From assembly GCF_001557325.1 (NCBI RefSeq), contig NZ_LSJS01000188.1:1-24046 (forward strand): a stretch of 24,046 nucleotides of DNA. The letters run 5' to 3'. This DNA is from Erythrobacter donghaensis (GTDB taxonomy: Bacteria > Pseudomonadota > Alphaproteobacteria > Sphingomonadales > Sphingomonadaceae). Every line of letters starts with the position of its first letter. Position 1 is the stretch's first letter. The translations under genes were made by a program, and so were the position numbers. Under the pieces are notes generated by a model. The model did not search any database. It was given only the letters and a program-made list of their open reading frames with translations, and was not told the origin of the DNA. This document shows positions 2,119 through 22,445 of the stretch, in pieces.

Positions 2119-2177
2119 TTTCATTGGAGGACTTTAAGCGGAAGCTCAAGATTTTCCGTGTCTGCGCGAGGTCAGAA

Positions 2178-3758
2178 ATGCTCAGGGCCGCCTTTCTTCT
2201 CGTCGCCGCGATGGGCCTCGCCGGGACATCTGCCGCGTCCGGGTCTCAACGGGCCGACCTCCAGAGCCGTGCCGAACGGCTTGTCCAGCGCCCGGAAGGC
2301 GCGCCCCCATTCGTCAACGGCGGCCTCGTCATCGGCGAAAACGGGCAAGTGCTTGTCAGCCATGCCGACGGGTACGCGGACTATCGCCTTCGTGCCCCGC
2401 TCGATGTCGACGCCGTTTTTCCGCTAGCCTCCGGGGCGAAGCCGTTCACTTCGGTCGCGATCCTTCAGTTGCGTGACAGAGGGCGTCTCCGGCTTGAGGA
2501 CGCAGTCGGGAAGCATCTTCCGGGATTTCCCTTTGCCGACATCACGATCCGTCACCTGCTCTCCCATACGAGCGGATTGCCCGATCTCGAGCTCTATGAG
2601 CCCCTGATCGCGGCACGTCCCGATCATGTCGTCACGGGCTCCGACCTGGTGCCCGCGCTCAGGGCATGGAAGGAACCCTTGCGGTTCGCGCCGGGAACAG
2701 AATTCAGGTATTCCAACATCAATTACCAGCTCCTCGCCCGAATTGTGGAGGTGGTCTCGGGCCAGAGCTTCGGCGAATACATGCGCGAACGTGTCTTCCG
2801 TCCGGCGGGGATGCGATCGAGCTATGTGCGGGGCACACGTGCGATCGGCGCGCATCGGGAGCCGGTGACCCGGCACACGCTCGCCGTGATGTTCCGGACC
2901 GAGCCCGAGGATGTGAGCCGGCTCGGCTATCGCGATGCCGTCATGATGCGACCCTTCCGCTATGAGGGCTTCAATCTGGGAAGCACCGTCGGCGATCAGA
3001 ACCTTTTCTCGACGCTCGGTGACCTGGTGAAGTTCGATAAGGCACTGAGCTCGGCGAAAATTCTCTCGCTGAAATCCCAGGAGGAGGCCTACGCACCTGT
3101 CCGCTTCAATGACGGACGCATCTATGATGAGCCCGGGATCTATGAGCTCTATGGCGCTCGCTGTTCCTACGGCTTCGGCTGGGAAGTGTGCCGCCACCCC
3201 GAACGTGGACGGCTGGTTGGCCATGCCGGCTTCAGCCGCGGCATAGCGACGATGCTTTATCGCGAGCTCGACAGCCGCCGTGTCGTCGTGATGTACGACA
3301 ATGGCGACGGTGGCGCATTCGGGCCGCGCTTCGCGTCTCTCGTCAATGCCGTGCACGGAAAGCCGGCACTCGATCTGCCCCTACGTCGCTCGCTCACCCG
3401 CGAATATGGCAGGACCCTTGTTTCCGAGGGGCCGGTCGCGGCGCTGATCCGGTTCAATAGGCTCAAGTCCGATACCGAAAGATGGACCACGACCAGCGCC
3501 GGGATGAACCAGCTCGGGTATGATCTGCTCCGCAACGGGTACGAGGCGCTGGCGCTTGACGCCTTTCGCCTGAACCTTGTGCTCAATCCCGACGATGCGA
3601 ATGCTTACGACAGCTACGGCGAGGCGCTGGCGGTGAACGGCCGGCGGGGCGATGCCATCCTCGCCTATCGCCGCGCCCTCGAGCTCGAACCGGACAACAA
3701 GGCCCGTCGGGCAGCACTCGACAGGCTCGAGCGCGAGAGCGTTGAACCAGCATCATGA
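2178..3758 (+). CDS. Exported SxxK serine hydrolase (beta-lactamase family) with C-terminal TPR-like tail
   Basis: A 526-residue serine hydrolase of the beta-lactamase/D-Ala-D-Ala-peptidase fold (class C-like family, often esterases or peptidases rather than true beta-lactamases). ATG at 2178 begins a Sec signal (MLRAAFLLVAAMGLAGTSAA). The TTG at 2124 lies upstream of the inferred transcription start and is rejected. The catalytic SxxK is SGAK (S85, K88), followed by the family block ITIRHLLSHTSGLPDL and the YSN motif (Y178-N180). The HxG-type third motif is probably VGHAGFSRG. The C-terminal ~80 residues form one or two TPR-like helices (LNPDDANAYDSYGEAL, AILAYRRALELEPDN), which is common in this subfamily. 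An operator-like repeat overlaps its promoter. Expected location is the periplasm; the substrate is unknown. Confidence 0.88.
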   Translation: MLRAAFLLVAAMGLAGTSAASGSQRADLQSRAERLVQRPEGAPPFVNGGLVIGENGQVLVSHADGYADYRLRAPLDVDAVFPLASGAKPFTSVAILQLRDRGRLRLEDAVGKHLPGFPFADITIRHLLSHTSGLPDLELYEPLIAARPDHVVTGSDLVPALRAWKEPLRFAPGTEFRYSNINYQLLARIVEVVSGQSFGEYMRERVFRPAGMRSSYVRGTRAIGAHREPVTRHTLAVMFRTEPEDVSRLGYRDAVMMRPFRYEGFNLGSTVGDQNLFSTLGDLVKFDKALSSAKILSLKSQEEAYAPVRFNDGRIYDEPGIYELYGARCSYGFGWEVCRHPERGRLVGHAGFSRGIATMLYRELDSRRVVVMYDNGDGGAFGPRFASLVNAVHGKPALDLPLRRSLTREYGRTLVSEGPVAALIRFNRLKSDTERWTTTSAGMNQLGYDLLRNGYEALALDAFRLNLVLNPDDANAYDSYGEALAVNGRRGDAILAYRRALELEPDNKARRAALDRLERESVEPAS

Positions 3759-3768
3759 ACGACCATTA

Positions 3769-3792
3769 GCCGGAAGCGCATATGCTTCGGGC
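3769..3792. terminator. Stem-loop between convergent genes
   Basis: GCCGGAAGC (3769-3777) and GCTTCGGGC (3784-3792) pair with one mismatch around a 6-nt loop. The hairpin lies between the stops of the plus-strand serine hydrolase and the minus-strand XRE gene. It could end transcription from both sides. No clear T-run follows on either strand, so intrinsic termination is uncertain. Confidence 0.4.
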
Positions 3793-3793
3793 G

Positions 3794-3997
3794 TCAGTCA
3801 TCCAGATCCAGGATGTCGCCGGGCCTGCACTCCAAGACCTCGCAGAGCTTCGCGAGGGTTTCGAAACGGACGCCTTTCACCTTGCCTGAGCGGAACAGCG
3901 AAAGGTGCGTTTCGCTCACGCCGATTTCAGCCGCAAGGTCCTTGGCCTTGATGCCCCGCGCCACGATCACGGCGTCAAGCGTTACCCTGATTGCCAC
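3794..3997 (-). CDS. Small XRE-family transcriptional regulator (YozG-like)
   Basis: A 67-residue Cro/C1-type helix-turn-helix protein consisting of little more than the DNA-binding domain. KDLAAEIGVSETHLSLFRSG gives helices 2-3, and TLAKLCEVLECRPGDILDL is the hallmark end of the small XRE group that is paired with DUF2975 membrane proteins. Translation starts at GTG (3995-3997), 2 bp after the stop of the DUF2975 gene, so expression is probably translationally coupled. Family knowledge: such pairs are widespread and presumed autoregulatory. The 17-bp inverted repeats upstream of this operon and of the serine hydrolase are the natural candidate operators (inference). A dimeric single-HTH protein would fit a symmetric site of this size. 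Confidence 0.85.
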   Translation of the reverse strand: MAIRVTLDAVIVARGIKAKDLAAEIGVSETHLSLFRSGKVKGVRFETLAKLCEVLECRPGDILDLDD

Positions 3998-3999
3998 GC

Positions 4000-4509
4000 T
4001 CAGAAAATCTGCTCGAGTTCGGCCTCGGCTTCGGCCGCCCGTTCCATCAGCCGGCCGAGGAAGCTGAGGCCCACACCGATCGCGGCAATGATGAGAGTGG
4101 CAACATCATGATCGATCAGTCTGGTCCGCGGCTCTGCGAGAAGACTGAATACGGCAGGCAAGGCGAAAAGCGCAAGAGCCGCTCCCGCGATCAGGCAGAA
4201 CCCGACACGCTTGATCGACCGGACCGCGAGTGGCCCGAAAGGCACCCCCTGTGCAGCCGCTGCGGCGGCCTCGCGAAGCTGCCACAGGGCAGCGAGATAG
4301 AGAAACGAAGGGGCCGAAAGCAGTGCCTGAAATCCCACCGCACCGGCGCGATCTTGGATCGTCGCTGCACCGGAACCGAACAGGCCCGCATAGGCCGCGC
4401 GCTCCGCGACGATGACAAAGGCGAGAAACAGAACGAGCGCGCTCAGGAAGCGCTGCAGCCTCGCCGCGAACGCGCGCAAGGCATCGGCATTGCGGGGGGT
4501 GGTTGTCAT
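4000..4509 (-). CDS. DUF2975 family four-helix membrane protein
   Basis: A 169-residue integral membrane protein. Four hydrophobic helices are visible: FLSALVLFLAFVIVAERAAY, ALLSAPSFLYLAALWQLREA, VGFCLIAGAALALFALPAVF and DHDVATLIIAAIGVGLSFLG. A central amphipathic stretch (AQGVPFGPLAVRSIKRVG) resembles the conserved G-x-PF motif region of DUF2975. The C-terminus is acidic (EAEAELEQIF). The immediately following small XRE gene supports this assignment, since DUF2975 and this type of HTH protein occur as pairs. Molecular role is unknown; it may sense a membrane state and modulate the regulator. It is transcribed divergently from the DUF418-ABC operon, with two operator-like repeats in the shared promoter. 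Confidence 0.8.
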   Translation of the reverse strand: MTTTPRNADALRAFAARLQRFLSALVLFLAFVIVAERAAYAGLFGSGAATIQDRAGAVGFQALLSAPSFLYLAALWQLREAAAAAAQGVPFGPLAVRSIKRVGFCLIAGAALALFALPAVFSLLAEPRTRLIDHDVATLIIAAIGVGLSFLGRLMERAAEAEAELEQIF

Positions 4510-4527
4510 GGCCGAGCCCTAGCAAAA

Positions 4528-4544
4528 TTTAGGTGCGAGTTAAA
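4528..4544. promoter_or_regulatory. 17-bp inverted repeat, putative XRE operator (site 2)
   Basis: TTTAGG-TGCGA-GTTAAA has the same 6-5-6 layout as the site at 2102. It lies 19 bp upstream of the DUF2975 ATG (minus strand) and in the shared promoter of the divergent DUF418-ABC gene. Two positions break symmetry, but the outer TTTA/TAAA is kept. Confidence 0.5.
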
Positions 4545-4556
4545 CTCTGGATTGTC

Positions 4557-4573
4557 TTTAAGTCTCAGTTAAA
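4557..4573. promoter_or_regulatory. 17-bp inverted repeat, putative XRE operator (site 3)
   Basis: TTTAAG-TCTCA-GTTAAA, third copy of the motif. Its centre is 29 bp from the centre of site 2, close to three helical turns, so two bound dimers could lie on about the same face of DNA. It lies 27 bp upstream of the DUF418-ABC start codon and could block both divergent promoters. Confidence 0.55.
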
Positions 4574-4600
4574 TTACTGCAGGCGGCAGGAGAACCATCC

Positions 4601-6712
4601 ATGGCCAATCGCATTCTCTCGCTCGACGTGCTCCGGGGCTTCGCGCTGTTCGGGTTGGTGATCGTCAACGCGCCGTTCTTTGCCGCGCCGCTGGTCTCGG
4701 TCGCCAACCCGACCTACGGACCACTTGCCGTGGACGGCGCAGCGCTCTGGTCATGGGCGATCCCCCACGTGTTCTTCGAGTACAAGAGCGTCGCGCTCTT
4801 CACGATGCTCTTTGGCGTCAGCCTGTATCTGGTCGGCGGCGAGAGCGGTGATCCGGCGCGCTCACCGGTACTTCGCCGCAGGCTTGGCTGGCTTGCGCTG
4901 TTCGGTCTTCTCCATGGCGCCCTCGTCTGGTTCGGCGACATCCTGCTGTCCTATGCGATCGCGGGCGCCATCATACTCGGCGCCCGGTCATGGCCGGTCT
5001 CCCGTCTCCTGTCGGTCGGTACTGCGCTCGTTCTGCTTTCTGCAGCACTGCTCGCGGCGCTTGTCCTGTGGCAATCGGGCCTACCTCCGGCGGAACTGGC
5101 TGCGATGAAGGCAATGGCCTGGTCCCCGACTGCCTCGCAGCATGCTGATCAGCTCGCCGCCTTCCGGAGCGACCTTGCCTCCACCCAGCTGGCCAATGCC
5201 GGCCTTTGGGCCGAATTGCAGGTCCAGATCCTTGTCCTGCTGACGCCGCGAACGGCGGGGCTGATGATGATCGGCCTTGCCCTGTTCCGGACCGGCTTCC
5301 TGTCGGGTGAGGCGACGAACCGCACCTATCTTCGCTTCATCGCTGTCGGAGCGCTGGCGCTTGCCGGACTGGCATGGAACGGGTTCGGGATCATCGCGGC
5401 GGATTTCCCGATGATCCGCACCCAGGGCTGGGGTAACCTCGTGTCCTCCCTGCTCTCACCATTCGTCGCCCTTGCCTATGCTGCCGGCCTGATCCTGCTG
5501 CTGCGCTCGGCCCGGCTCCGGCCGCTGACCTCTGCACTGGCGGCAACCGGCCGGATGGCGTTCACAAACTACATTACGCAGTCGCTGGTTCTCAGCATGC
5601 TTTTCTGGAGCGGACGGGGCCTTGGCCTCTATGGCGAGCTGTCGCGTCCGGCGGTGATCGCCATCGCCGCCGGCCTGTTTGCCGTGCAGGTTGGCTGTTC
5701 GGTCCTGTGGCTGAAGCGGTTCGGCAAGGGGCCCCTCGAGGTGCTTTGGCGCCGGCTCAGCGGCGATCCCGCAATTCCGGCAAGGGCAACATGGCACGAG
5801 CCCCCCCTCGCCATCGAGAGTTGTGGCCTGACAAAGCGATACGGGCGGCAGGTCGCGGTGCAGGATGTGTCGCTGACTGTGCCGGTCGGCGCGACCTACG
5901 GCTTTCTTGGTCCGAACGGTGCCGGCAAGACCACGACGATCCGCATGCTGCTCGGTCTCGTCAGGCCGAGCGAGGGAGCAGTGGCGATTTTCGGCCACGA
6001 CGTCCAGCGCGACCGGATGAAGGCTGCGCGGCAAGTCGGCGCGTTGCTCGAGGCCCGTGCCACCTATGATCACCTTTCCGGTCGATCCAACCTCGATATG
6101 ACCCGCCGCCTCCTGAAACTGCCCGCCAGCGAGGTTGACCGTGTTCTCGCCCTTGTCCGCCTTGATCATGCGGCACACCGCCGCGTGGGGCACTATTCCC
6201 TCGGCATGCGGCAACGCCTCGGCCTTGCCCGCGCCCTTCTTGGCCGGCCACGGCTCCTGATTCTGGACGAGCCGCTCAACGGGCTCGACCCCGAAGGTAT
6301 CGCCGAGATGCGCGAGACGATCCGGGCTCTTCCCGAGACCGCCGGAATCACGGTTTTCCTCTCCAGCCATCTGCTTTCCGAAGTCGAGCAGGTGGCGAGC
6401 CATATCGGGCTCATGCGCGCCGGGCGGTTGGTGGCGCAGGGGCCCCTCGCGGAGTTCCGGCAGCTTGCGGCCCCTGACCTGATCCTGCGCACCAGCGATA
6501 TGCGCAGGACATCGGAACTGCTTGGCAGTCAGCCACTCCGCTTCGAGACGGTGCGGGAAGGCCTCAGGCTTGTCGGCAGCGGCACAGACAGCAAGGCTGC
6601 GCGTGTTGCCCGGCTCGTGGCAGGGGCTGGTATCGAAATCTACGAACTCACGCCGCAGCGGACAGACCTTGAACAGCTCTACAACCGCTTTGCTGCAGGA
6701 GAAGCTGCATGA
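4601..6712 (+). CDS. DUF418 (YeiB-type) membrane domain fused to ABC transporter ATPase
   Basis: A 703-residue fusion. Residues 1 to about 390 form a polytopic DUF418/YeiB-like membrane region: the N-terminal hallmark LSLDVLRGFALFGLVIVN, then FFEYKSVALFTMLFGVSLYL, RLGWLALFGLLHGALVWFGD, and late hallmarks ATGRMAFTNYITQS and VLWLKRFGKGPLEVLWRRL. Residues about 403-703 form a complete ABC ATPase of the drug/lantibiotic-exporter type: Walker A GPNGAGKTT (437-445), signature YSLGMRQRLGLARAL (from 532), Walker B LLILDEP (D556, E557) and a switch histidine in FLSSHLL. The reading frame is uninterrupted, so this is not a frameshifted pair. ATG at 4601 has AGGAG 8 nt upstream. Its last 4 bp overlap the permease gene. 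The complex probably exports, or removes from the membrane, a hydrophobic compound or peptide (inference). Confidence 0.9.
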   Translation: MANRILSLDVLRGFALFGLVIVNAPFFAAPLVSVANPTYGPLAVDGAALWSWAIPHVFFEYKSVALFTMLFGVSLYLVGGESGDPARSPVLRRRLGWLALFGLLHGALVWFGDILLSYAIAGAIILGARSWPVSRLLSVGTALVLLSAALLAALVLWQSGLPPAELAAMKAMAWSPTASQHADQLAAFRSDLASTQLANAGLWAELQVQILVLLTPRTAGLMMIGLALFRTGFLSGEATNRTYLRFIAVGALALAGLAWNGFGIIAADFPMIRTQGWGNLVSSLLSPFVALAYAAGLILLLRSARLRPLTSALAATGRMAFTNYITQSLVLSMLFWSGRGLGLYGELSRPAVIAIAAGLFAVQVGCSVLWLKRFGKGPLEVLWRRLSGDPAIPARATWHEPPLAIESCGLTKRYGRQVAVQDVSLTVPVGATYGFLGPNGAGKTTTIRMLLGLVRPSEGAVAIFGHDVQRDRMKAARQVGALLEARATYDHLSGRSNLDMTRRLLKLPASEVDRVLALVRLDHAAHRRVGHYSLGMRQRLGLARALLGRPRLLILDEPLNGLDPEGIAEMRETIRALPETAGITVFLSSHLLSEVEQVASHIGLMRAGRLVAQGPLAEFRQLAAPDLILRTSDMRRTSELLGSQPLRFETVREGLRLVGSGTDSKAARVARLVAGAGIEIYELTPQRTDLEQLYNRFAAGEAA

Positions 6713-7413
6713 TGATCCTCCCCTGCCTGCTCAACGAGATCCGGAAACTGCGCGGCACGCTTGCCCTGCTGCTCTGCGTTGTTGCCCCTTTGCTCGTAGC
6801 GATTGTCGCGGTGCTGATTGCCGCCAGACAGGGGGAGCCGGACTGGCTTGCCCTGCTAACCAACGCTTTCGGCCTGTGGGCCTATCTCGCCCTGCCGATG
6901 ACCATCACCGCCCTCTCGGCGCTTGTCGCGCAGGTCGACCATGGTGCCCGGATCTGGGATCATCTCTTTGCATTGCCGGTGCCGCGAGGTGCCATCCTGC
7001 TGGCCAAGGTGATCACCCTCACCCTTCTGGTCGGCATCATGTCCGTCCTGCTGGCCATGGCGGTGTTCGCGCTCGGGACGCTGGCAGGCGCGGCAGGTCC
7101 GTTGCCGCTGGCCGAGGCGGCGAGAATGGCAGGCATGCAGTGGGCCGCGTCGCTCATGGTGGCCGTCGTCCAGCTGTGGGTCGCGCTGAGGTTCCGGAGT
7201 TTCGTGGCGCCGGTTGCCCTTGGCTTCGCGGGTACGTTTCTCGTCGTTGCAGCGATGGGCGCGCCTGAAGCAATCGTGCTGCCGTGGGCCATGCCTCTTG
7301 CGACACTGGAGGTGCCGGGCGGCAATCCGGCAGTGGCTCTCGTGGCGGGTCTGGGCGGAGGGCTGCTGCTGCTGCCGGTCATGATCCGGCACCTTGCGCG
7401 GCGGGATTACTGA
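6709..7413 (+). CDS. ABC-2 type permease, partner of the fused ATPase
   Basis: A 234-residue integral membrane protein with about six hydrophobic segments, starting with a cytoplasmic N-terminus LLNEIRKLRGTLALLLCV typical of ABC-2 permeases of the bacitracin/lantibiotic-immunity type. The motif HGARIWDHLFALPVPRGAILLAKV between helices 2 and 3 matches the family's conserved coupling region. The start ATG overlaps the ATPase stop (ATGATG at 6709-6714), so translation is coupled. Together with the ATPase half of the preceding gene it makes a two-gene exporter. Its stop codon lies 7 bp inside the end of the convergent serine hydrolase 2 gene. Substrate is unknown. Confidence 0.85.
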   Translation: MMILPCLLNEIRKLRGTLALLLCVVAPLLVAIVAVLIAARQGEPDWLALLTNAFGLWAYLALPMTITALSALVAQVDHGARIWDHLFALPVPRGAILLAKVITLTLLVGIMSVLLAMAVFALGTLAGAAGPLPLAEAARMAGMQWAASLMVAVVQLWVALRFRSFVAPVALGFAGTFLVVAAMGAPEAIVLPWAMPLATLEVPGGNPAVALVAGLGGGLLLLPVMIRHLARRDY

Positions 7414-8525
7414 CCGGCTGTCGGGTTCTTCGGCGAAGCAAGGAGAGCGGCATCGAGCACCTTGTACGCCCGGCCCCGGCAATCGGCCTCGGCGAAGTTG
7501 GCAAGGCAGATCACGGTAAGCTGCCGATCCGGAACACGCACCATGAACGTCGAGACGCCGTAGTCGCCGCCCTCGTACCAGATCGTGGAGAGACCATCAT
7601 GAATGCCGCGTACGAGACCAAAGGCATCGTTGGTCTTCGGATGGGCGTAAGCCCGGGTGGAGAGCATCGTCCGGGTGAAATCCTCTCCGAACCTGTGGTC
7701 GCGAAAAAGCGCAGCGTCCCACCGCGCCAGATCGGCAAGCGTCGAGAACATCCCGCTTCCGCCGTAATGGGGCGAGAGCCGCGGTGCCTCGCGCCATTCG
7801 CCCGCACCGGATGCAGGGACATAGGCGCGCGCCGTTCCCGGGCGTTGCTCCAGCGGTGCATCGACCCAGGTCCGGCGCATGCCGAGGGGCGCGAAGAAGC
7901 TGACCTGCATATGGTTCGGGAAACTCGTCCGGTTCTGGCGCGCCACCAGCTCCGCGAGGATCTGGTAGTTGCTGTTGGAATAGGCCCAGCGGGTACCGGG
8001 CTCGAAAACGAGGCCGGCGCTGCCGAAGACGGCAGCAAGCGCGTCCTCGACAGTGAACCCGTTTTCCGATGCCCACCCGCCCCTCGGCGCGGGAAGCGTG
8101 AAGTATTCGGGGACGCCGCTGGTCATGTAGACCAGATGACCGACGGTCACCGGCTCCATGAACTCCGGCAGTTCAGGCCACCTGCGTCGGATCGGATCAT
8201 CGAGCGTCAGCCGCCCCCGGCTTATCTCAAGGGCGATGGCAGCGGCCGTGAACTGCTTGGAGAGCGATGCGAGATTGAAGGCGGTATCGGCGCCGATCCT
8301 CTCGCCGGTCCGGAGATCGGCGAGGCCGTAGCCCCGCGCGATGACCAGCTCACCGTTCCGGATCACGCCGATCGCATAGCCGGGGCGGGCCGGTACGATA
8401 TCGGCGAACAGGTCATCGACCCGGGTCTGAAGTGCCACCTCGTCCCCGCGCGCTGCCTCCTTTGCTCCACACCCAGCGGCAAACAAGCCAGCGATGATGA
8501 TGAGCAGTCCGGTCACGCGCCTCAT
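7407..8525 (-). CDS. Lipoprotein SxxK serine hydrolase (beta-lactamase family)
   Basis: A 372-residue serine hydrolase of the class C/esterase group. The N-terminus MRRVTGLLIIIAGLFAAGC is a lipoprotein signal with the lipobox cysteine at C19, so it is membrane-anchored. SLSK (S87-K90) is the SxxK pair, YSN lies at 182-184, VGHLVYMTSGVPEY is the block equivalent to RHLLTHTSGLP, and EGGDYGVS probably takes the HxG/KTG position. Histidine of the usual HTSG block is replaced by methionine (MTSG). It lies downstream of marR1 with an 84-bp gap that carries its own MarR-type palindrome. Substrate could be a peptide, ester or beta-lactam; the sequence does not decide. It overlaps the ABC permease end-to-end. 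Confidence 0.88.
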   Translation of the reverse strand: MRRVTGLLIIIAGLFAAGCGAKEAARGDEVALQTRVDDLFADIVPARPGYAIGVIRNGELVIARGYGLADLRTGERIGADTAFNLASLSKQFTAAAIALEISRGRLTLDDPIRRRWPELPEFMEPVTVGHLVYMTSGVPEYFTLPAPRGGWASENGFTVEDALAAVFGSAGLVFEPGTRWAYSNSNYQILAELVARQNRTSFPNHMQVSFFAPLGMRRTWVDAPLEQRPGTARAYVPASGAGEWREAPRLSPHYGGSGMFSTLADLARWDAALFRDHRFGEDFTRTMLSTRAYAHPKTNDAFGLVRGIHDGLSTIWYEGGDYGVSTFMVRVPDRQLTVICLANFAEADCRGRAYKVLDAALLASPKNPTAGQ

Positions 8526-8609: not shown

Positions 8610-9083
8610 TCAACCTGCACCGCGCGTCCGGGAAGTTTCGGCGATACGCTCACGCAGGCCCTTGCGGTGGAGAGCGTTGATCGCCGTGACCAGGGCCCGG
8701 TCGAGCGGCACGCCCGTCTCCTCCATGAGGTCGGCGAGGGCGCGCGCCGTGGCAGACCAGTGTTCCCGAATACGCGGGAGCATCGCTTCCGCCTTCTCGC
8801 TCAGGGACGCGATCCGTTCTCGGCGATCATTGCCACGTGTCACGATCACGAGGCCAAGCCGCTCCATCTGCGCGATCGTCTGGCTGGCAGCGGAATGGGT
8901 AAGCGGCGCGCAGCGCGCGATCGTTGTGATGCTACTCGGGCCGCGATCGGCAAGAACCCGCATCACGGGCGTAAATCTGGGACGGTAGTCCAACCCGTCC
9001 GAGCGGTAGACGGCCAGCATCCCCGCATCGAGCAGGTCAAGCATCTCCTGCAGAAGCGATCCGAGCGTACGCACCTCTTCCAT
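8610..9083 (-). CDS. MarR-family transcriptional regulator 1
   Basis: A 157-residue winged-helix repressor-type protein. The DNA-binding core reads ITTIARCAPLTHSAASQTIAQMERLGLV and is followed by the wing GNDRRERIASLSEKAEAML. The N-terminal dimerisation helix includes LLQEMLDLLDAGMLAVYRSDGLDYRPRFTPV, which is also seen in MarR2 at 13652, so the two are paralogues. ATG at 9081-9083 is only 4 bp from a perfect palindrome, with no proper Shine-Dalgarno. A -10-like TATAAC overlaps that palindrome, so the mRNA may be nearly leaderless and the gene autorepressed. It is followed by serine hydrolase 2, and is divergent from S41 protease 1. Confidence 0.88.
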   Translation of the reverse strand: MEEVRTLGSLLQEMLDLLDAGMLAVYRSDGLDYRPRFTPVMRVLADRGPSSITTIARCAPLTHSAASQTIAQMERLGLVIVTRGNDRRERIASLSEKAEAMLPRIREHWSATARALADLMEETGVPLDRALVTAINALHRKGLRERIAETSRTRGAG

Positions 9084-9101: not shown

Positions 9102-9184
9102 TATTCCGCGCCATCGGTCACCGACGGCCCGCGTGCGCGGATAATGGCCGGATGACCAGAGACCTAGCGCATGAGGAACCTGGA

Positions 9185-10669
9185 ATGTCACCCGTAATCT
9201 CAAGACGCGCCTTCACCGCCGGCATGATGGCCACGATCGGCCTTTGCGGGGTCGGCCACGCCCGGCAGGACCTGTTGATCGCGCCTGATGTCCTATGCTC
9301 CGACTTCGATGAACTTTATGAGCGTCTGGCACGGGTCCATTTCGATCTGTTTGCTCACAGGTCCCGTGCCGAGCACGACGCCCTCCACGCCGCGCTGCGC
9401 GAACGCATGACACGCTCCATGCCCGTCGACGAGGCGATCAGGTTGTTCCAGCGTTTCGTCGCCTTCGGCCGGGTGGCTCATAGCCGCATCGACGCGGCCA
9501 GCGACGCCTATCGTGCCTTCCGCCAAGCGGGAGGCCCTGCCTTCCCGCTCACCTTGCGGGTCAGGGACGATCGCGTGTTCATCATGACCAACGCCAGCGA
9601 CCAGTCCGAGCTGGCGCCGGGCGACGAGGTCCTGTCGATCGAGGGTGAGAGGGCTACGACGTTCATCGATGGGCTTTGGTCCGATCTGTCTGCGGATACT
9701 CGCTACATGTTCCACAGCATGATCGAATGGGAACTGCCGCGGCTGATCTGGCAGCGCCTCGGTGCCGTGCCTGCGATCCGCCTGAAGATTTCCCGTTACG
9801 GCGAGGACGGGCGAGAGGTGCTCGTCAGGACCCGGACGCGTGCGGAGATGGGTGCCGCGACGTCGCAGATCCCCCTGCTGGATCCGGCAGCATCAGACCG
9901 GACCTGGCGGCTCATCGACGATGCGATCGGCTATTTCCGGCCTGGTCCTTTCTACGCAGCCGAGAACCCCGATGCGATGTACGACAACACCGCCTTCGTC
10001 GGCCTGGTGGACAGGGCTTTCTCCGATCTGATCGACAAGGGTGCGGGCAAGGTCATCATCGACCTGCGTGACAACCCCGGCGGAGACAACTCCTTCAGCG
10101 ACCACCTCGTCTCCTGGTTCGCCGACCGGCCGTTCCGCTTCGCCAGCGCGTTCAGGATCAAGGTGACACCCGAGACGGTCGCATCCAACGCCGCCCGCCT
10201 TTCCGTTGCCGGCAACGACCCCACCGGAATTTCAGCCAAGCTTGCAGAGGCCTATGGCCGCGCGCGCGCGGGCGAGATCATCGATTTTCCCATACCCATC
10301 GCGCAGCCACGCGCCGGCCATCGCTATTCGGGCGAGGTCTTCGTACTGGTCAACCGTCACAGCTATTCCAACACGGTCAGTGTCGCCTCGCTGATTCAGG
10401 ATTACGGGTTCGGCACCATTCTGGGCGAGGAAACCTCGGATCTCGCGACGACCTACGGGGCGATGGAAAGCTTCACGCTGTCACGGACCGGGATCGTCGT
10501 CGGTTACCCCAAGGCGAGGATTGTCCGCATCAGCGGCGATCTCACGGGACGCGGCGTCGTGCCTGATGTCAGCATCGAAACGCCTGTTGTCGAGACGCCC
10601 GACGACCCGGTTCTGCAGCGGGCGATATCACTCGTCCGCTCGAGTACGAGCGCGGGACCATCAAAGTGA
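9185..10669 (+). CDS. Tat-exported S41-family peptidase 1
   Basis: A 494-residue protease of the S41 (C-terminal processing/IRBP-like) family. The start MSPVISRRAFTAGMMATIGLCGVGHA is a twin-arginine signal (SRRAF), and ATG at 9185 has GAGGA 7 nt upstream. After an N-terminal helical region comes a degenerate PDZ-like stretch (LAPGDEVLSIEGERATTFIDG). The S41 catalytic domain follows: VIIDLRDNPGGDN, then the nucleophile region NRHSYSNTVSVA with Ser395 as likely catalytic serine, and GTILGEETSD. It is divergent from marR1 and shares its operator region. Tat export means folding before transport, possibly with a cofactor or simply family habit. Substrate is unknown; it may act on peptidoglycan-linked or signal peptides (inference). 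Confidence 0.85.
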   Translation: MSPVISRRAFTAGMMATIGLCGVGHARQDLLIAPDVLCSDFDELYERLARVHFDLFAHRSRAEHDALHAALRERMTRSMPVDEAIRLFQRFVAFGRVAHSRIDAASDAYRAFRQAGGPAFPLTLRVRDDRVFIMTNASDQSELAPGDEVLSIEGERATTFIDGLWSDLSADTRYMFHSMIEWELPRLIWQRLGAVPAIRLKISRYGEDGREVLVRTRTRAEMGAATSQIPLLDPAASDRTWRLIDDAIGYFRPGPFYAAENPDAMYDNTAFVGLVDRAFSDLIDKGAGKVIIDLRDNPGGDNSFSDHLVSWFADRPFRFASAFRIKVTPETVASNAARLSVAGNDPTGISAKLAEAYGRARAGEIIDFPIPIAQPRAGHRYSGEVFVLVNRHSYSNTVSVASLIQDYGFGTILGEETSDLATTYGAMESFTLSRTGIVVGYPKARIVRISGDLTGRGVVPDVSIETPVVETPDDPVLQRAISLVRSSTSAGPSK

Positions 10670-10706: not shown

Positions 10707-10875
10707 GTGCTTGGCACGCGGCAGTTCCCGGGCGTGGGCAAGGGGCCGGAAGCTCGATGGAACGACAAGTGGCACATCGGTTCCTGCATCAAGGCGCTTG
10801 CCTCTACACTCGCCGCGTGTCTGGCAGAGTTGGCGCATATCAGCCGGAACGCGACGATCGGGCGGATCATTGGGG
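10707..10875 (+). pseudogene. Serine hydrolase (beta-lactamase family) remnant
   Basis: The frame from GTG 10707 reads residues closely resembling the SxxK region of class C-like serine hydrolases: WNDKWHIGSCIKALASTLAA, then CLAELAHISRNATIGRIIG. Family members show DKWHIGSCTKAMTATL followed by a helix and W-D-x-T-I-G. The SCIK tetrad would be the SxxK. A TAA stop (10704-10706) is directly upstream, and the similarity ends where the coding end of the convergent S41 protease 2 begins. Everything before and after the SxxK helix is missing. It is a decayed fragment, probably from a former hydrolase gene between the two proteases. Confidence 0.65.
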
Positions 10876-12357
10876 CGGATTTCCGCCAACCACTGCAAGG
10901 GCCCCCGCGAACTGACGGTCGCGTCCCAGCGCCAAGTCTTCTGCGGTGACCCTGACCAGTCGATCGGGAATGATCCCGGCATCAGGCTCCGGCCGTGCCG
11001 AGAAGATCCCGACGATCGGCAGATCGACCTCCAGCCCCGTTTCGGGAAGGCGCACGAAAAAGTAGGCGTCGCCATTGATGCCACGCCGGTTGCCGCCGGT
11101 CGGTTCGCCGATGATCGTCGCAACGCCCGATCCCGAAAGCGCGTTGGCAAACTGGAACGTGGCTGACGAACAGGCGGCATTGACTAGGACGGCCACAGGC
11201 CCGCCGAACCTGCGCCCACGGGGCGAGATTGCCGCCTCATCCGGCGCAGCCTGGACCCGTTCATAGAAGCCTTCGGCGTCCGGGCCCTGTGCTGCCTCCC
11301 CCCAGTCACGGAAGCGCCGGTCCCAGGTGTCGAGGAAGGGGTTCAGTTCGGATGGCAGGGCACGGTACCGCAGCCGGCGACGGAACTGGGGAAGCGGCAG
11401 GTCTGCCGCAACCAGCCTTTCCAGCAGGTGCCAGCCGCACTCGGTGCCCCCCTCATTGCCGCGCAGGTCGATGATCAGGCCCTTTGCGCCCTCATCGATC
11501 AGCCGGTCGAGCACGCCATCGAGATAGGCCTTCCAGTCCCATTTGGACCGGTATGTCGCCCAGTCCCCCATCGTGAGAACTCCGATCCGGTCGGGACGGA
11601 TCGCGAACGGCCAGTCGAGAGGGGCATCATCGGGGGCCCGGGCCGCCCGGATTTCGGCTTCGGTCAGTGCACCGGCTTCCAGCAACCGTGTGCGGCCCTG
11701 AGGGTCGATCAGACCGAGCCTTACGGTTCCATCCTTCCTCGCCGGCTTCAGCAGCGGCCGGAACACATCGAAGGCTGCGTATCGGTCACTCGCACCGATA
11801 CCGAGCTGGGCAACGCGCTTGGCATCATTGCCGCCGTCCGCGCGCGCCAGGGGGAGCATGGCTGCCAGCAGGTCACGTGCAGGCGTTCCGTCGATCATGG
11901 TGATCCGCGAACCCGGTGCCAAGGTGCTCGTGCCCGCCCTGCCACCTGTCACGATCATCTCTCCATCGATCCAGCGGAACGCGAAGGGAAGACGATTGCG
12001 GCCGCCGAACAGGGCAGCGGAGGCCGCGTCACTCTGGTTGAACGGGTTGGGGTGGGTATGACCACAGCGGATGCTGGCGGTTATCCGCGCAAGGGCGATG
12101 TAGAACTCGCCAAGGCTGCGCTCGCGGCGCGCCCAGTCCTTTGCCGCGACAATACGCTCCGCGAAACCGCCAGGCGGCAGATAACGCAAGAGCCCGGGAT
12201 GAACGGTCTCATAGGCGCGCTGCAGCAGATCGAGATCCGCGCGCATCTGCGAAGGGCGCAGGCGCCCTGTTTCGGCGGCGTAGAGTACGGTCGGCAGGCC
12301 GGTGGCTGCGATGGCTGCAGCACCTCCTGCCATGAAGTGGCGGCGCGAAAGGATCAT
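10867..12357 (-). CDS. Tat-exported S41-family peptidase 2
   Basis: A 496-residue S41 protease with a twin-arginine signal (MILSRRHFMAGGAAAIAATG). An N-terminal helical domain has conserved SIRCGHTHPNPF, a motif common in this S41 subgroup before the PDZ-like part (APGSRITMIDGTPARDLLA). The catalytic region contains GLIIDLRGNEGGTECGW, the nucleophile loop NAACSSATFQFA (Ser398 likely, Ser397 possible) and TIIGEPTGGNRRG. It follows the membrane AraC gene in the same direction after 76 bp, so that regulator may control it. It is convergent with S41 protease 1 across the serine-hydrolase remnant. Expected location is the periplasm; the substrate is not predictable. Confidence 0.85.
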   Translation of the reverse strand: MILSRRHFMAGGAAAIAATGLPTVLYAAETGRLRPSQMRADLDLLQRAYETVHPGLLRYLPPGGFAERIVAAKDWARRERSLGEFYIALARITASIRCGHTHPNPFNQSDAASAALFGGRNRLPFAFRWIDGEMIVTGGRAGTSTLAPGSRITMIDGTPARDLLAAMLPLARADGGNDAKRVAQLGIGASDRYAAFDVFRPLLKPARKDGTVRLGLIDPQGRTRLLEAGALTEAEIRAARAPDDAPLDWPFAIRPDRIGVLTMGDWATYRSKWDWKAYLDGVLDRLIDEGAKGLIIDLRGNEGGTECGWHLLERLVAADLPLPQFRRRLRYRALPSELNPFLDTWDRRFRDWGEAAQGPDAEGFYERVQAAPDEAAISPRGRRFGGPVAVLVNAACSSATFQFANALSGSGVATIIGEPTGGNRRGINGDAYFFVRLPETGLEVDLPIVGIFSARPEPDAGIIPDRLVRVTAEDLALGRDRQFAGALAVVGGNPPQ

Positions 12358-12433
12358 GCGAGGCTCCTGTCTTCAGACGGAGCTTCCCTCGTCCGGACAC
12401 CTGCGGCTGTCGCCTCATCAGGCCTCGCCGGGC

Positions 12434-13507
12434 CTATGATGTGACCTTTGAGCCTTGCACGTTCGCGCGATAGCTGCTCGGCGACATGCCCAGATGCGCG
12501 CGGAAGATGCGGTTGAAGCTGGCCTTGGAGCCGAACCCGCATTCCAGCGCCAACCCGAGGAGATCATCCTCGCTGCCCTGTTCCAGCGCCTTGGCAACTG
12601 CGCCGGCACGCAGCCTGCCAAGGCATTCGGCAAAACCGCCATGCCCCTCATTCAGCGCCTTCGAAAGATGCGTCGTATTCGTGCCCAGCAGCCGCGCAAG
12701 ACGGTCGAGATCGAGTTCCGGATCGCGCCACCAGCCTTCACTCTCGAGGCGCGCGAGCCATGTCGCCCCCTGCGCGTGCCAGTCCCGTTCCTCCGATAGA
12801 TCCATCACTGCGATCGGCGCACTCGAATCGCGCCAGCCCAGCACCCCGATGACGAGGGCCGACATGCCGAGAAGGACATAGAACACGAACAGGTCGAAAT
12901 AGTCGATCGGCCTCACCAGCAGGTCGAACAGGTCCCAGGCGGCGCGGGCAACAAGAATGACGCCGAGAAAGATCAGGCCGGCGCGCAGGCGGGTGGCGGG
13001 GCGGGTGAGACGGCGCCGCGCCGCAAGCCAGTTCCTGTAGGCGTCCAGTTCACGCCAACCAAGGACTGCATAGAAGGTCATCGAGGCGATCACCGCCACC
13101 AGAAGGGCAGGACTTAGATAAGGCTGATGGACGTGCTCGTCCCACCAATACTTGGTTGCGACCGGGAATGGAAAAAGCGCTGCCTGATAAAGGAACTGGG
13201 ACACTGGCGCGATCAGATGAGAACGGCCAATGGGCGTGCCGCGCGACAGGGCGGTGACATGGCCGTAGAGCAGCGGGCCGATCGCCAGCGGCACTGCCAG
13301 CGGCGCAGAGGTGAGCCACGGCCAGCGGTCATAGGCACCGGCATAGCCGATGATGAACGGCGTCATCATTCCCGCGACGCAGACCAGCAGCAATGCAAGG
13401 TAGCGGTTGGCCATCCGGTTGGCGGGTGTCCGCCATAGCAGGACGCCCAGAACAAGGTTCTGGCCGGCCAGGACAGCCAGAAGGGTGCTCCATGCGCCGA
13501 ACTGCAT
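12434..13507 (-). CDS. Membrane-anchored AraC-family regulator
   Basis: A 357-residue protein with an N-terminal seven-helix membrane region (from FGAWSTLLAVLAGQNLVLGV to YFDLFVFYVLLGMSALVIGV) and a C-terminal AraC DNA-binding domain. The AraC part shows LDRLARLLGTNTTHLSKALN and the second HTH LLGLALECGFGSKASFNRIF, ending HLGMSPSSYR. This layout is frequent in sphingomonads and Bacteroidota, where it presumably couples a membrane or periplasmic signal to transcription. ATG at 13505-13507 was chosen since the first helix starts at once; the frame is open upstream but non-conserved. No strong Shine-Dalgarno is seen. It is divergent from MarR2 across 144 bp and upstream of S41 protease 2. Confidence 0.88.
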   Translation of the reverse strand: MQFGAWSTLLAVLAGQNLVLGVLLWRTPANRMANRYLALLLVCVAGMMTPFIIGYAGAYDRWPWLTSAPLAVPLAIGPLLYGHVTALSRGTPIGRSHLIAPVSQFLYQAALFPFPVATKYWWDEHVHQPYLSPALLVAVIASMTFYAVLGWRELDAYRNWLAARRRLTRPATRLRAGLIFLGVILVARAAWDLFDLLVRPIDYFDLFVFYVLLGMSALVIGVLGWRDSSAPIAVMDLSEERDWHAQGATWLARLESEGWWRDPELDLDRLARLLGTNTTHLSKALNEGHGGFAECLGRLRAGAVAKALEQGSEDDLLGLALECGFGSKASFNRIFRAHLGMSPSSYRANVQGSKVTS

Positions 13508-13639
13508 CGGGGGTATTGGTGCCGCCAAATCCGCTGGAGTCAACGCGTCTTCTGCATGCAGTGCTCGAGAGGCCGGCGGGTGGGAGCCCTGCTCGGCGAG
13601 GATGACAGAAATCCCTTGATCGACGGGCCCGGAATTTAC

Positions 13640-13651
13640 ATAAGGACTTAT
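13640..13651. promoter_or_regulatory. Palindrome overlapping marR2 ribosome-binding site
   Basis: ATAAG-GA-CTTAT is a perfect 12-bp palindrome ending at the base before the ATG of marR2. It contains the Shine-Dalgarno AAGGA (13642-13646, spacing 5). Its central AG-N2-CT matches the centre of the marR1 sites, so it is a plausible autoregulatory site for the paralogue. Confidence 0.5.
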
Positions 13652-14119
13652 ATGACTCGTCTCTCCAGCAGATTGGGAACCCGGCTCCGCGCACTCCTTG
13701 CGATGCTCGACGGCGATGTCGAGGCCCTGTACGCCCGGCTTGGCACACCGTTCAGGCCGCGGTTCTACCCGGTCGTTTCCCACCTTCTCGCGGCTGGAAG
13801 TGCAACCGTCGGCGAGCTTGCGGGCGCGGCCGGTGTCTCGCAGCCCGCCATCACCCAGACGCTGTCCGAGATGGAGAAGCTTGGGCTCATCGACGTTTCG
13901 GTCGCGGATGACAGGCGCGTCCGCTCTGTCGCGCTGTCACAGGCGGGCGCGGCCACGGCCGGCGAGCTGGCCCCGATGTGGCTCGCAATCGATGATGCCG
14001 CGGATGAACTCGACCGCGAGCTTCCCTACGCCCTTTCGGCGATACTTGACGCTGCGAGCGACGCGCTGCGCAAGGAGCGCTTCCTTGACCGGATCGACAG
14101 GCACACACGGGGAGACTGA
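13652..14119 (+). CDS. MarR-family transcriptional regulator 2
   Basis: A 155-residue winged-helix regulator paralogous to MarR1: shared features include the dimer helix LLAMLDGDVEALYARLGTPF, RPRFYPV, QTLSEMEKLGL and DDRRVRSVALSQ. The HTH is VGELAGAAGVSQPAITQTLS. Start ATG 13652 is the first after the in-frame upstream region and has AAGGA within a palindrome directly before it. It is followed after 1 bp by S41 protease 3, with the stop TGA and next ATG nearly touching, so the two are translationally coupled. It is divergent from the membrane AraC gene. Effector is unknown; MarR proteins usually answer to small hydrophobic compounds or oxidation. Confidence 0.88.
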   Translation: MTRLSSRLGTRLRALLAMLDGDVEALYARLGTPFRPRFYPVVSHLLAAGSATVGELAGAAGVSQPAITQTLSEMEKLGLIDVSVADDRRVRSVALSQAGAATAGELAPMWLAIDDAADELDRELPYALSAILDAASDALRKERFLDRIDRHTRGD

Positions 14120-14120
14120 T

Positions 14121-15125
14121 ATGCTGCGTTTTGCCTTGCCGCTGATGGCAGCCTGCATGATCCTAGGAATGCCAGCCCACGCCCAAACCGGCCAGATCAG
14201 CCAGGGCATCGTGCTCATGGAAGCGGACCGGGCACGCATCATCGACAATGCAGCGAGGCTGCTGGAAAGCCGCTATGTCGATGCCGAGCTCGGCAAGCGG
14301 CTCGCGCGGCAGTTGCGCCGGGCGGCACCGCGATGGTCGCAGATCGCAGATCCGTCAGAATATGCCGAGGCTGTCACGCGATGGCTTCGCGAGACGTCTG
14401 GCGACGGGCATCTCGGCCTCAATTACAGCATACAGCCGATCGCCGAAGCGGGGGGCGAGGAGGCCTTCTCGGCCGGCGAAATGGAACGATGGTATGGTGC
14501 GCACCTCAATCACGGGATCGAGAAGATCGAGCGCCTCGAAGGCAACATCATGCTGTTGGATCTCCGGGTATTCCCGCCGGTATCAATGGCGGGCGACGTC
14601 TTCGCCTCCGCGATGAACGTCGTCGCACAGGGCGACGCGCTCATCATCGATCTTCGGCGCAACGGCGGCGGAGCGGGGGCGGGCAGTCTGGTGACCGGCT
14701 ATTTGCTGGATGAAGGTCAGCCGTTGAGCGGAGGCTACGATCGTCCGACCGACAGGATGTCGGCCAGCACCTCGCCCGTGTGGGTCCCCGGAAGAAGGTT
14801 CGGCACGAAAAAGCCGCTCTATATCCTGACCTCGCGCCGCACCTTCTCGGCTGCCGAGGCCTTCGCCTATGACCTCCAAGCCCTCGGGCGCGCCATTATT
14901 GTGGGCGAGGTTACTGGCGGGGGTGCGCACCCGTTCGAGTACCGGCGGGTCCACCCGCACTTCGCGCTGGATCTGCCGGAAGGAAAATCCATCAATCCGA
15001 TAACCGGAGGCAATTGGCAGGGAACGGGCGTTAAGCCTGACGTTGTTGTCCCTGCCGACGAAGCGCTTGAGAAGGCTCTGGAACTTGCGCGGGCACGGCT
15101 TGCCCCCTTGGAAGCGAAGCGGTGA
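14121..15125 (+). CDS. Sec-exported S41-family peptidase 3 (IRBP-like)
   Basis: A 334-residue S41 protease of the shorter IRBP-like group without a PDZ domain. A Sec signal (MLRFALPLMAACMILGMPAHA) is followed by the N-terminal helical part (IIDNAARLLESRYVDAELGK) typical of this group, with SGDGHLGLNY. The catalytic core has ALIIDLRRNGGGAG, TSRRTFSAAEAFAYDL with nucleophile Ser243, and IIVGEVTGGGAHP. The end INPITGGNWQGTGVKPDVVV is also conserved. ATG at 14121 has GGGGAGA upstream. It forms a two-gene operon with marR2. A broken serine-hydrolase gene follows with its own Shine-Dalgarno, so the operon was probably once three genes long. Confidence 0.9.
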   Translation: MLRFALPLMAACMILGMPAHAQTGQISQGIVLMEADRARIIDNAARLLESRYVDAELGKRLARQLRRAAPRWSQIADPSEYAEAVTRWLRETSGDGHLGLNYSIQPIAEAGGEEAFSAGEMERWYGAHLNHGIEKIERLEGNIMLLDLRVFPPVSMAGDVFASAMNVVAQGDALIIDLRRNGGGAGAGSLVTGYLLDEGQPLSGGYDRPTDRMSASTSPVWVPGRRFGTKKPLYILTSRRTFSAAEAFAYDLQALGRAIIVGEVTGGGAHPFEYRRVHPHFALDLPEGKSINPITGGNWQGTGVKPDVVVPADEALEKALELARARLAPLEAKR

Positions 15126-20317: not shown

Positions 20318-20348
20318 GGGGCGGATTGTCGCAAGGATGATCCGCCCC
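20318..20348 (+). other. Stem-loop between GST and flavin fusion gene
   Basis: GGGGCGGAT (20318-20326) and ATCCGCCCC (20340-20348) form a perfect 9-bp stem around a 13-nt loop in the 65-bp gap between the two genes. No T-run follows. It may be a partial terminator or an RNA-processing element that sets relative expression. Confidence 0.45.
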
Positions 20349-20372
20349 ATTCAACCGACCAGGAGCCAATCG

Positions 20373-22445
20373 ATGACCGCAACCGAACCACTCAATGCGC
20401 TCGCCCATCCGATCTGGCATCCGGGCGAGGTGGCGGTGCAGCAGCGGCTCGGTGTGGCCGAGCGCATGGCCAAGGCTGCGCCGCGGATCATTTTCGATCA
20501 CATGCCCGATCAGCACCGGGACTTTTACACCTCGCTCCCCTTCATGATGATCGGCACGGTCGATCCGGCGGGCGATGTCTGGGCCTCGCTGGTGATGGGC
20601 AAGCCGGGCTTCATCCGCTCGCCCGATCCGCGCTCGCTCCTGATCGGCCACCGGCCCGATCAGAGTGACCCCGCGGCTACCGGCATCGCCGAAGGTGCCG
20701 CGATCGGCATGCTCGGCATCGAGCTGGCCAACCGGCGGCGCAACCGCATGAACGGGACCGTGCATGGCGTCAGCGCGGAAGGCTTTGCCGTCACCGTCGG
20801 CCATGCCTTCGGCAATTGCCCGCAATATATCCAGCTGCGGGACTTCGCCTTTGCGCGCGATCCGCAAGCACCTTTGACCATCGAGGCCGAGGAACTGCCC
20901 GCGCTCGATGACGCGGCGCGGGCGATGATCGCTGCGGCCGACACCTTCTTCGTCGCCTCTTACGTCGATCTCGATCATGAGCGGCAGGTCGACGTGTCGC
21001 ATCGCGGCGGCAAGCCCGGCTTCGTGCGGATCGGTGACGACGGGCGCTTCACTATCCCGGACTTCGCCGGGAATCTGCACTACAACACCTTTGGCAATTT
21101 CGTCGCAAATCCGCGCGCTGGGCTGATCTTCATCGATTTTGCCACCGGCGACGTGCTGCAGCTGACGGGCGAACCCGCACTCGAATTCGAGGGCCCGGAG
21201 ATCGAACATTTTCAGGGGGCAGAGCGCCAGTGGCATTTTACCCCGCGCCGGATCATCCGGCGCCGCGGCGCGCTGCCGCTGCGCTGGCAGGTCCAGTCGT
21301 CCGACTATGTCTCGCCCAACACCGCCATGACCGGATCGTGGGAAGACACCGCCGCGCGCATCGCTGCAAGCGAGCTGGCCGCGCGCTGGCGGCCCATGCG
21401 GATTGCGCGGATCGAGCAGGAAACGCCCGAGATCGCCTCCTTCACGCTCGAACCCGCGGATGGCGGCGCGATCGCGAACTACAAGGCTGGGCAACACCTG
21501 CCGGTGCGCGCCAGTATTGCGGGTGAGGCGGCACCGGTGGTGCGCACCTATACGCTGTCGAGCGCCCCATCGGACGGCACCTATCGCCTCAGCGTCAAGC
21601 GACAGGGATTGTTTTCCGGCCATCTCCACGGCCTCAGCGAAGGCAATGTGATTGAGGCGCGCGGGCCGGCGGGCGACTTCTTTATTGAAGGCCATGAGAA
21701 GCGCCCGGCGGTGCTGATTGCGGCCGGGGTCGGCATCACCCCGATGCTCGCCATGCTGCGCCAGATCGTGTTCGAGGGGCTGCGCACGCGCGGCACCCGG
21801 CCGACCTGGCTGGTCCACGCCGCGCGCAGCCGTGCCCTGCGGCCCTTCGATGGTGAGATCCGTTCGCTGGTCGAAAGGGCCAAGGGCGCGGTGCGTTTCG
21901 TCACCGTGCATGACGAACCCGATGCGGGCGAAATCGAGGGTGAGGACTTCACCTGGCAGGGCCGCTTTGCGGCGCCCGATCTCGCGCGGTTCCTGCCGTT
22001 TGGCGATTATGATTTCTACATGTGCGGCCCGCCCGGCTTCATGCAGGGGGTCTATGATGGGCTGCGCGATCTCAATGTTGCCGATAATCGCATCCATGCC
22101 GAGGCTTTCGGCCCGTCCTCGCTGACGCGACGTCCCGATCTGGGCGCGGACGCGCCCGAACCTGTCCCCGCAGCGACCGAGAGCGTGCCGGTGATCTTCG
22201 CCGCTTCGGCGAAGGAAGCGCGCTGGGAACCGGAGGGCGGCACCCTGCTCGAGCTCGCCGAGATGCGGGGCGTGAGTGCTCCCTTCAGCTGCCGCCGGGG
22301 CACCTGCGGCATGTGCGCGGCCAAGCTGCTCAAGGGCAAGGTTGCCTATTCCAACAAGCCCTCGGTCGCTGTGGCCGAAGGGGAAGTGCTGGTCTGCTCG
22401 GCGGTGCCCCACCGCGACAGCGGTCCGCTGGAGATCGATTTGTGA
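20373..22445 (+). CDS. PNPOx-like flavin domain fused to FAD/NAD(P) reductase and 2Fe-2S ferredoxin
   Basis: A 690-residue three-part redox enzyme. Residues about 40-310 are a pyridoxamine-phosphate-oxidase-like split barrel: FYTSLPFMMIGTVDPAGDVW near 51, then VDVSHRGGKPGFVRIG and FAGNLHYNTFGNFVANPRAG. Residues about 335-590 are a ferredoxin-NADP reductase-type module: FAD motif RTYTLS (391-396), NAD(P) motif GVGITP (452-457) and YMCGPPGFM (Cys551). Residues about 604-690 are a plant-type 2Fe-2S domain with C640, C645, C648 and C675. ATG 20373 has AGGAG upstream. Electrons presumably flow from NAD(P)H through FAD and iron-sulphur to a flavin-bound substrate, but direction and substrate are inferred. 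Its PNPOx half resembles the stand-alone protein at 23373. Confidence 0.9.
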   Translation: MTATEPLNALAHPIWHPGEVAVQQRLGVAERMAKAAPRIIFDHMPDQHRDFYTSLPFMMIGTVDPAGDVWASLVMGKPGFIRSPDPRSLLIGHRPDQSDPAATGIAEGAAIGMLGIELANRRRNRMNGTVHGVSAEGFAVTVGHAFGNCPQYIQLRDFAFARDPQAPLTIEAEELPALDDAARAMIAAADTFFVASYVDLDHERQVDVSHRGGKPGFVRIGDDGRFTIPDFAGNLHYNTFGNFVANPRAGLIFIDFATGDVLQLTGEPALEFEGPEIEHFQGAERQWHFTPRRIIRRRGALPLRWQVQSSDYVSPNTAMTGSWEDTAARIAASELAARWRPMRIARIEQETPEIASFTLEPADGGAIANYKAGQHLPVRASIAGEAAPVVRTYTLSSAPSDGTYRLSVKRQGLFSGHLHGLSEGNVIEARGPAGDFFIEGHEKRPAVLIAAGVGITPMLAMLRQIVFEGLRTRGTRPTWLVHAARSRALRPFDGEIRSLVERAKGAVRFVTVHDEPDAGEIEGEDFTWQGRFAAPDLARFLPFGDYDFYMCGPPGFMQGVYDGLRDLNVADNRIHAEAFGPSSLTRRPDLGADAPEPVPAATESVPVIFAASAKEARWEPEGGTLLELAEMRGVSAPFSCRRGTCGMCAAKLLKGKVAYSNKPSVAVAEGEVLVCSAVPHRDSGPLEIDL

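Follow-up and report, generated by a model that had tools for sequence, protein, structure and literature searches.

Proteins of the DUF418/YeiB type, for which we know of no assigned substrate, belong to the HGSNAT/YeiB branch of the transmembrane acyltransferase (TmAT) superfamily. In HGSNAT, the catalytic histidine lies 11 residues after a helix asparagine (N258 and H269; PMC11357348), and the acyl-CoA site of the superfamily is described as a DxxR motif, an FxxxxG motif, a helix-3 arginine and a helix-9 tyrosine in a paper that also describes a TmAT domain joined to a cytoplasmic racemase domain (PMC12423673). An S. epidermidis plasmid carries a DUF418 gene close to an ATP-binding cassette (ABC) ATPase-permease pair, from which a single gene separates it (PMC8765612). 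Here we analyze a 24,046-nucleotide stretch of Erythrobacter donghaensis (contig NZ_LSJS01000188.1, positions 1 to 24,046; hereafter the window), in which a DUF418/YeiB domain and an ABC-2-type ATPase are encoded by a single gene that recurs in metagenomes. We see an even chance that this gene encodes a transmembrane acyltransferase tied through a short flexible linker to an exporter ATPase, with the permease encoded by the next gene as the membrane part. The fusion provides a route to the function of the uncharacterised YeiB/DUF418 membrane proteins, and its conserved tie to an exporter points to a possible source of their substrate.

The Fusion Gene and Its Recurrence

The open reading frame (ORF) at 4601-6712 on the forward strand encodes 703 amino acids without an internal stop, and the claim of an earlier note on this DNA that DUF418 and an ABC ATPase share one unbroken frame is thus borne out. 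Both domains score far above their Pfam cut-offs, DUF418 (PF04235) at residues 228-386 (E 4.1e-37; 128.1 bits against a gathering score of 23.6) and ABC_tran at residues 421-560 (E 8.8e-30). The NCBIfam YeiB model (NF008093) covers residues 3-387 at 146.5 bits, short of its curated score of 325. On the forward strand, the gene comprises a DUF418/YeiB domain with ten membrane helices and a predicted transmembrane-acyltransferase fold (4601-5764, residues 1-388), a flexible linker with a predicted local distance difference test score below 50 at residues 389-400 (5765-5806, residues 389-402), and an ABC-2-type ATPase domain recognized by Pfam, fold search and motifs (5807-6709, residues 403-703).

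The fusion and its recurrence are firm. Among the best 120 of 1562 matches, at least 23 protein clusters, the window's own included, carry both Pfam domains; these relatives are metagenome protein clusters from several sources, the other 22 share 41-76% identity with the window's protein, and one (P0020) is named as a Terricaulis metagenome-assembled genome (MAG). A permease homologue with an equal longest-contig size was found for 7 of the other 22 clusters, which suggests, short of proof, that a permease gene adjoins the fusion gene there too. Automatic JGI names for some clusters already state both halves, so annotation software has registered the layout before. We found no published account of a DUF418-ABC fusion in the titles and listed abstracts of papers on DUF418, on DUF418 or YeiB with ABC transporters and on acyltransferase fusions, part of the DUF418 matches probably concerning DUF4185 through word-start matching.

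In sampled genome collections no fusion was found. A pattern scan of genome contigs gave no single gene with both halves among the 80 relatives kept of 92, and no match spanned both halves in 20 of 397 whole genomes matched at E 1e-60 or in 15 of 398 at E 1e-95, while one of 60 genomes matched at E 1e-105 over the ATPase only. Two further scans, run without a positive control, matched 0 of 396 and 0 of 385 genomes. As the samples overlap and no known fusion was among them, we do not claim that sequenced genomes lack it. Among plasmids, none of the best 5000 records covers 80% of the fusion query.

The DUF418 Half as a Probable Acyltransferase

Because searches with the full-length fold were filled by ATPase matches, the DUF418 half was modelled separately. 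Folded alone, it is predicted to form ten helices with the ninth broken, which is the TmAT superfamily fold, and all four features of the superfamily site are present (D9/R12, F67/G72, R94 and Y324), as placed by motif and helix rather than by superposition. H105 and D113 are invariant in the fused domain, as is G225 in the helix at 192-230, although equating the latter with the TmAT helix-6 glycine is a guess. The DUF418 profile gave a single match, at E 0.24, among sequences of solved structures. The DUF418 half is likely an acyltransferase that still works, an estimate we lowered slightly because of the replacement of H56 counted below.

The ATPase Half and the Permease

The ABC ATPase motif set is complete, with Walker A at 437-445 (GPNGAGKTT), the signature at 532-539 (YSLGMRQR), Walker B with its glutamate at 552-558 (LLILDEP) and His 590 as the H-loop histidine. 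The best solved-structure matches are ABC ATPases such as TM_1403 and a NosDFY chain. Residue 484, where many ABC ATPases carry a Q-loop glutamine, is Glu or Asp, which may be likened to the E-loop and to BcrAB. The permease gene (6709-7413, forward strand, 234 aa; ABC2_membrane_4, E 1e-16) shares its first 4 bases with the end of the fusion gene, and it is a single permease ORF, the next gene (7407-8525) being a serine hydrolase on the other strand. The nearest NCBIfam model of the ATPase is gallidermin-type protection and those of the permease are MutE/MutG, all below cut-off (TIGR03740, TIGR03732 and TIGR03733, with 225.9 of 309.75, 44.4 of 145.2 and 43.2 of 117.2). A reading as anti-phage defence was set aside, PADLOC giving only generic ATPase matches (best mad3, E 4e-22, residues 501-606) and a weak HTH match.

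A Conserved Unit and Its Operators

Upstream of the fusion gene and on the reverse strand lie genes for a DUF2975 membrane protein (4000-4509, 169 aa; E 1.7e-7) and a Cro/C1-type helix-turn-helix (HTH) regulator, HTH_26 (3794-3997, 67 aa; E 6e-19), so that the window has its HTH_26, DUF2975, ATPase and permease genes in an order shared with a unit in which the ATPase is unfused. We viewed 13 unfused-ATPase loci (L083, L084, L110 and L112-L121) with flanks of about 7 to 9 kb in both directions, drawn from 10 of the 18 ATPase matches of the 397-genome scan, the close kin L083 and L084, and L097 of the 398-genome scan, re-fetched as L110; the other 8 of the 18 were left out of the counts. Their sources are the family of the Sphingomonas desiccabilis genome and the order of a Hyphomonadaceae MAG or kin. 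All 13 carry a permease homologue, 10 carry DUF2975 and 9 the HTH regulator; at L113 the DUF2975 match is weak and partial and an HTH match is lacking. The conserved unit is firm: at ten loci (L083, L084, L110, L112, L113, L115-L117, L119 and L120) the other genes and the operators described below match the window, nine of them in the same divergent order, whereas the ATPase lacks the acyltransferase half. At L110 (7663-10061, G579), the ATPase, permease, DUF2975 and HTH matches all share one strand and only one operator copy is present; its ATPase (as L097) nests among the fusions in the ATPase tree. A literature search on YozG/YoaS returned unrelated matches only. About 1.2 kb from the unfused pump unit, L083 carries an Acyl_transf_3 gene (11493-12767; Pfam E 6e-28) and L084 a similar ORF (5393-6679); found in 2 of 13 loci and in one lineage, these carry no weight in our argument. 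An ORF flagged at L118 was likewise left aside.

In the window, 91 bp separate the divergent genes, and within them a 17-bp near-palindrome occurs twice, as TTTAGGTGCGAGTTAAA at 4528-4544 and TTTAAGTCTCAGTTAAA at 4557-4573. From the window the motif TTTAA-N7-TTAAA was drawn and then sought elsewhere. Shuffles of the window expect 0.04 matches at up to 1 mismatch, and single-letter shuffles of the gaps equalled the real gap in 0 to 13 of 1000 cases. At the same tolerance, two copies occur in L083, L084, L112, L113, L115, L116, L117, L119 and L120 and one in L110, and the motif is absent from L114, L118 and L121, which are the three loci that lack both a DUF2975 and an HTH match; other loci gave 4 matches in 287,244 bases. 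Of 14 distinct perfect sites across 13 whole genomes, 13 lie at the unit and one elsewhere (G291). Nine genomes contain such sites; the other four have no perfect site, including G403, whose two copies each carry one mismatch. The reversed pattern, used as a control, matches at 9 sites in these 13 genomes, so the lone site elsewhere means little and it is the placing at the unit that counts. A sigma-70 scan of 3700-7600 found none. The motif itself is firm, and its co-occurrence with the regulator suggests a putative binding site of the HTH_26 protein; operators so sharply defined would make a simple reporter for finding the inducer of the system.

A third copy in the window, TTTAAGCTTGACTTAAA at 2102-2118, matches the motif perfectly and stands in front of a serine hydrolase of the beta-lactamase fold (2124-3758, forward strand; Pfam Beta-lactamase E 7e-59, with a weak C-terminal TPR_2 match below cut-off), whose start is likely the ATG at 2178 and which is possibly part of the HTH_26 regulon.

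History of the Fusion

In a tree of 50 ATPases, from which L025 was left out for its length, the 23 fusions and the unfused L097 lie on one side of a branch (support 99/97). The same holds for the 23 fusions and the stand-alone P0024 in a quick tree of 61 DUF418 rows and in a careful tree of 60 (support 100/98), the stand-alone rows being 29 of 97 among the matches listed plus 9 loci, or 8 in the careful tree, where L053 was dropped for its long branch. The fusions alone as one clade are not rejected by the approximately unbiased (AU) test for the ATPase (p-AU 0.23), so that the nesting of L097 is not forced; for DUF418 they are rejected (p-AU 0.016), and P0024 nests inside. The simplest account of these trees is a single fusion event with later separation. 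At the point where the fusions continue into the ATPase, P0024 has a terminal tail of about 33 residues.

Proposed Mechanism and Alternatives

We tentatively propose, at rather less than even probability, an acylate-and-export machine, in which the YeiB-type acyltransferase would modify the pump's own substrate at the outer face, under a dedicated HTH_26/DUF2975 envelope switch that in this organism would also command a serine hydrolase capable of cleaving off acyl or peptide groups. In our main reading, given even odds above, the ATPase would be cytosolic, because the ten helices start with the N-terminus inside, and the acyltransferase would use cytosolic acyl-CoA to acylate a periplasm-facing acceptor. 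ABC ATPases function as dimers, so the pump would bring together a pair of acyltransferase domains, and a single envelope substrate (lipid, glycan or peptide) might be exported and acylated in a coupled process. The HTH_26 regulator, partnered in the membrane by DUF2975, would set expression via the paired operators between the divergent operons and perhaps also act at the serine hydrolase in this window. That the acyltransferase and the pump work on one substrate we judge about an even bet.

Several observations weigh against our main reading. DUF418 is found in 0 of 13 unfused ABC loci within the viewed flanks, and an ABC ATPase match lies within 2 kb at one of 39 DUF418 loci; since the parts are rarely neighbours when unfused, the case for their joint action is that of the fusion itself. 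The link may also be lost, given that each tree places one stand-alone row within the fusion group, and the full-length model (predicted template modelling score 0.57) does not predict the mutual placing of the two domains. As for catalysis, the window's DUF418 half has no significant Acyl_transf_3 match, the 23 fusions have Val, Ile or Ala at residue 34, where a histidine of HGSNAT spacing would fall by spacing alone, and position 56, which holds His in 32 of 34 stand-alone DUF418 rows, holds Tyr in 16 and His in 7 of the 23 fusions. The fused domain may thus have altered or lost activity, although a histidine elsewhere in the loop could take the HGSNAT role.

The same substitution of H56, together with a membrane domain that shares its chain with the ATPase and neighbours a permease, would suit a reading in line with the earlier note, with DUF418 as a non-enzymatic exporter part, whether an extra transmembrane domain or an anchor of the ATPase. 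The interpretation in that note is upheld in part; however, the acyltransferase fold with its site residues kept, and the ATPase and permease that do without DUF418 at all 13 unfused loci, speak against a dedicated membrane subunit, and we hold it to be quite improbable. The fusion might instead serve co-expression or membrane localisation only, both halves working on unrelated substrates. An interdomain stretch that varies from 15 to 31 residues across the fusions, the nested stand-alone rows and the rarity of adjacent unfused parts all fit, but the join persists in 23 clusters, the most divergent being 41% identical to the window's protein, and we regard this explanation as possible though unlikely. 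An artefact of sequencing or assembly that joined two neighbouring genes would explain why the sampled genome collections hold no fusion, but it can hardly be credited, since the same layout recurs in 23 clusters from several sources that are held together in both trees.

Other Genes of the Window

The two beta-lactamase-fold serine hydrolases (2124-3758 and 7407-8525) flank the pump unit and are 31% identical over 297 columns; the 13 unfused loci hold no homologue of the first and one weak match of the second, in L117. Three S41-family peptidases lie within 6 kb (9152-10669, 10867-12357 and 13698-15125), the first two being 26% identical, and two MarR-like regulators (8610-9083 and 13556-14119; 33% identical) each stand beside a hydrolase or peptidase gene. 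A 702-aa oxidoreductase is encoded at 20337-22445; its nearest named relative, from Erythrobacter sp. NAP1, is 75% identical, which points to a probable origin of the window in Sphingomonadales.

Comparison with Known Systems

Lantibiotic-protection exporters (LanFEG) have two different permease genes. The likeness of our locus to these and to bacitracin-type BcrAB exporters lies in the best NCBIfam matches of its ATPase and permease and in the Glu/Asp at residue 484, whereas it differs by scores below cut-off, a single permease gene and the fused acyltransferase. Within the HGSNAT/YeiB branch of the TmAT superfamily, the window's protein is set apart by its C-terminal ABC ATPase, and the invariant H105 and D113 are the fused domain's own, unlike HGSNAT. 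With the TmAT-racemase protein it shares the joining of a TmAT domain to a cytoplasmic enzyme, but here the partner is an ATPase with a separate permease.
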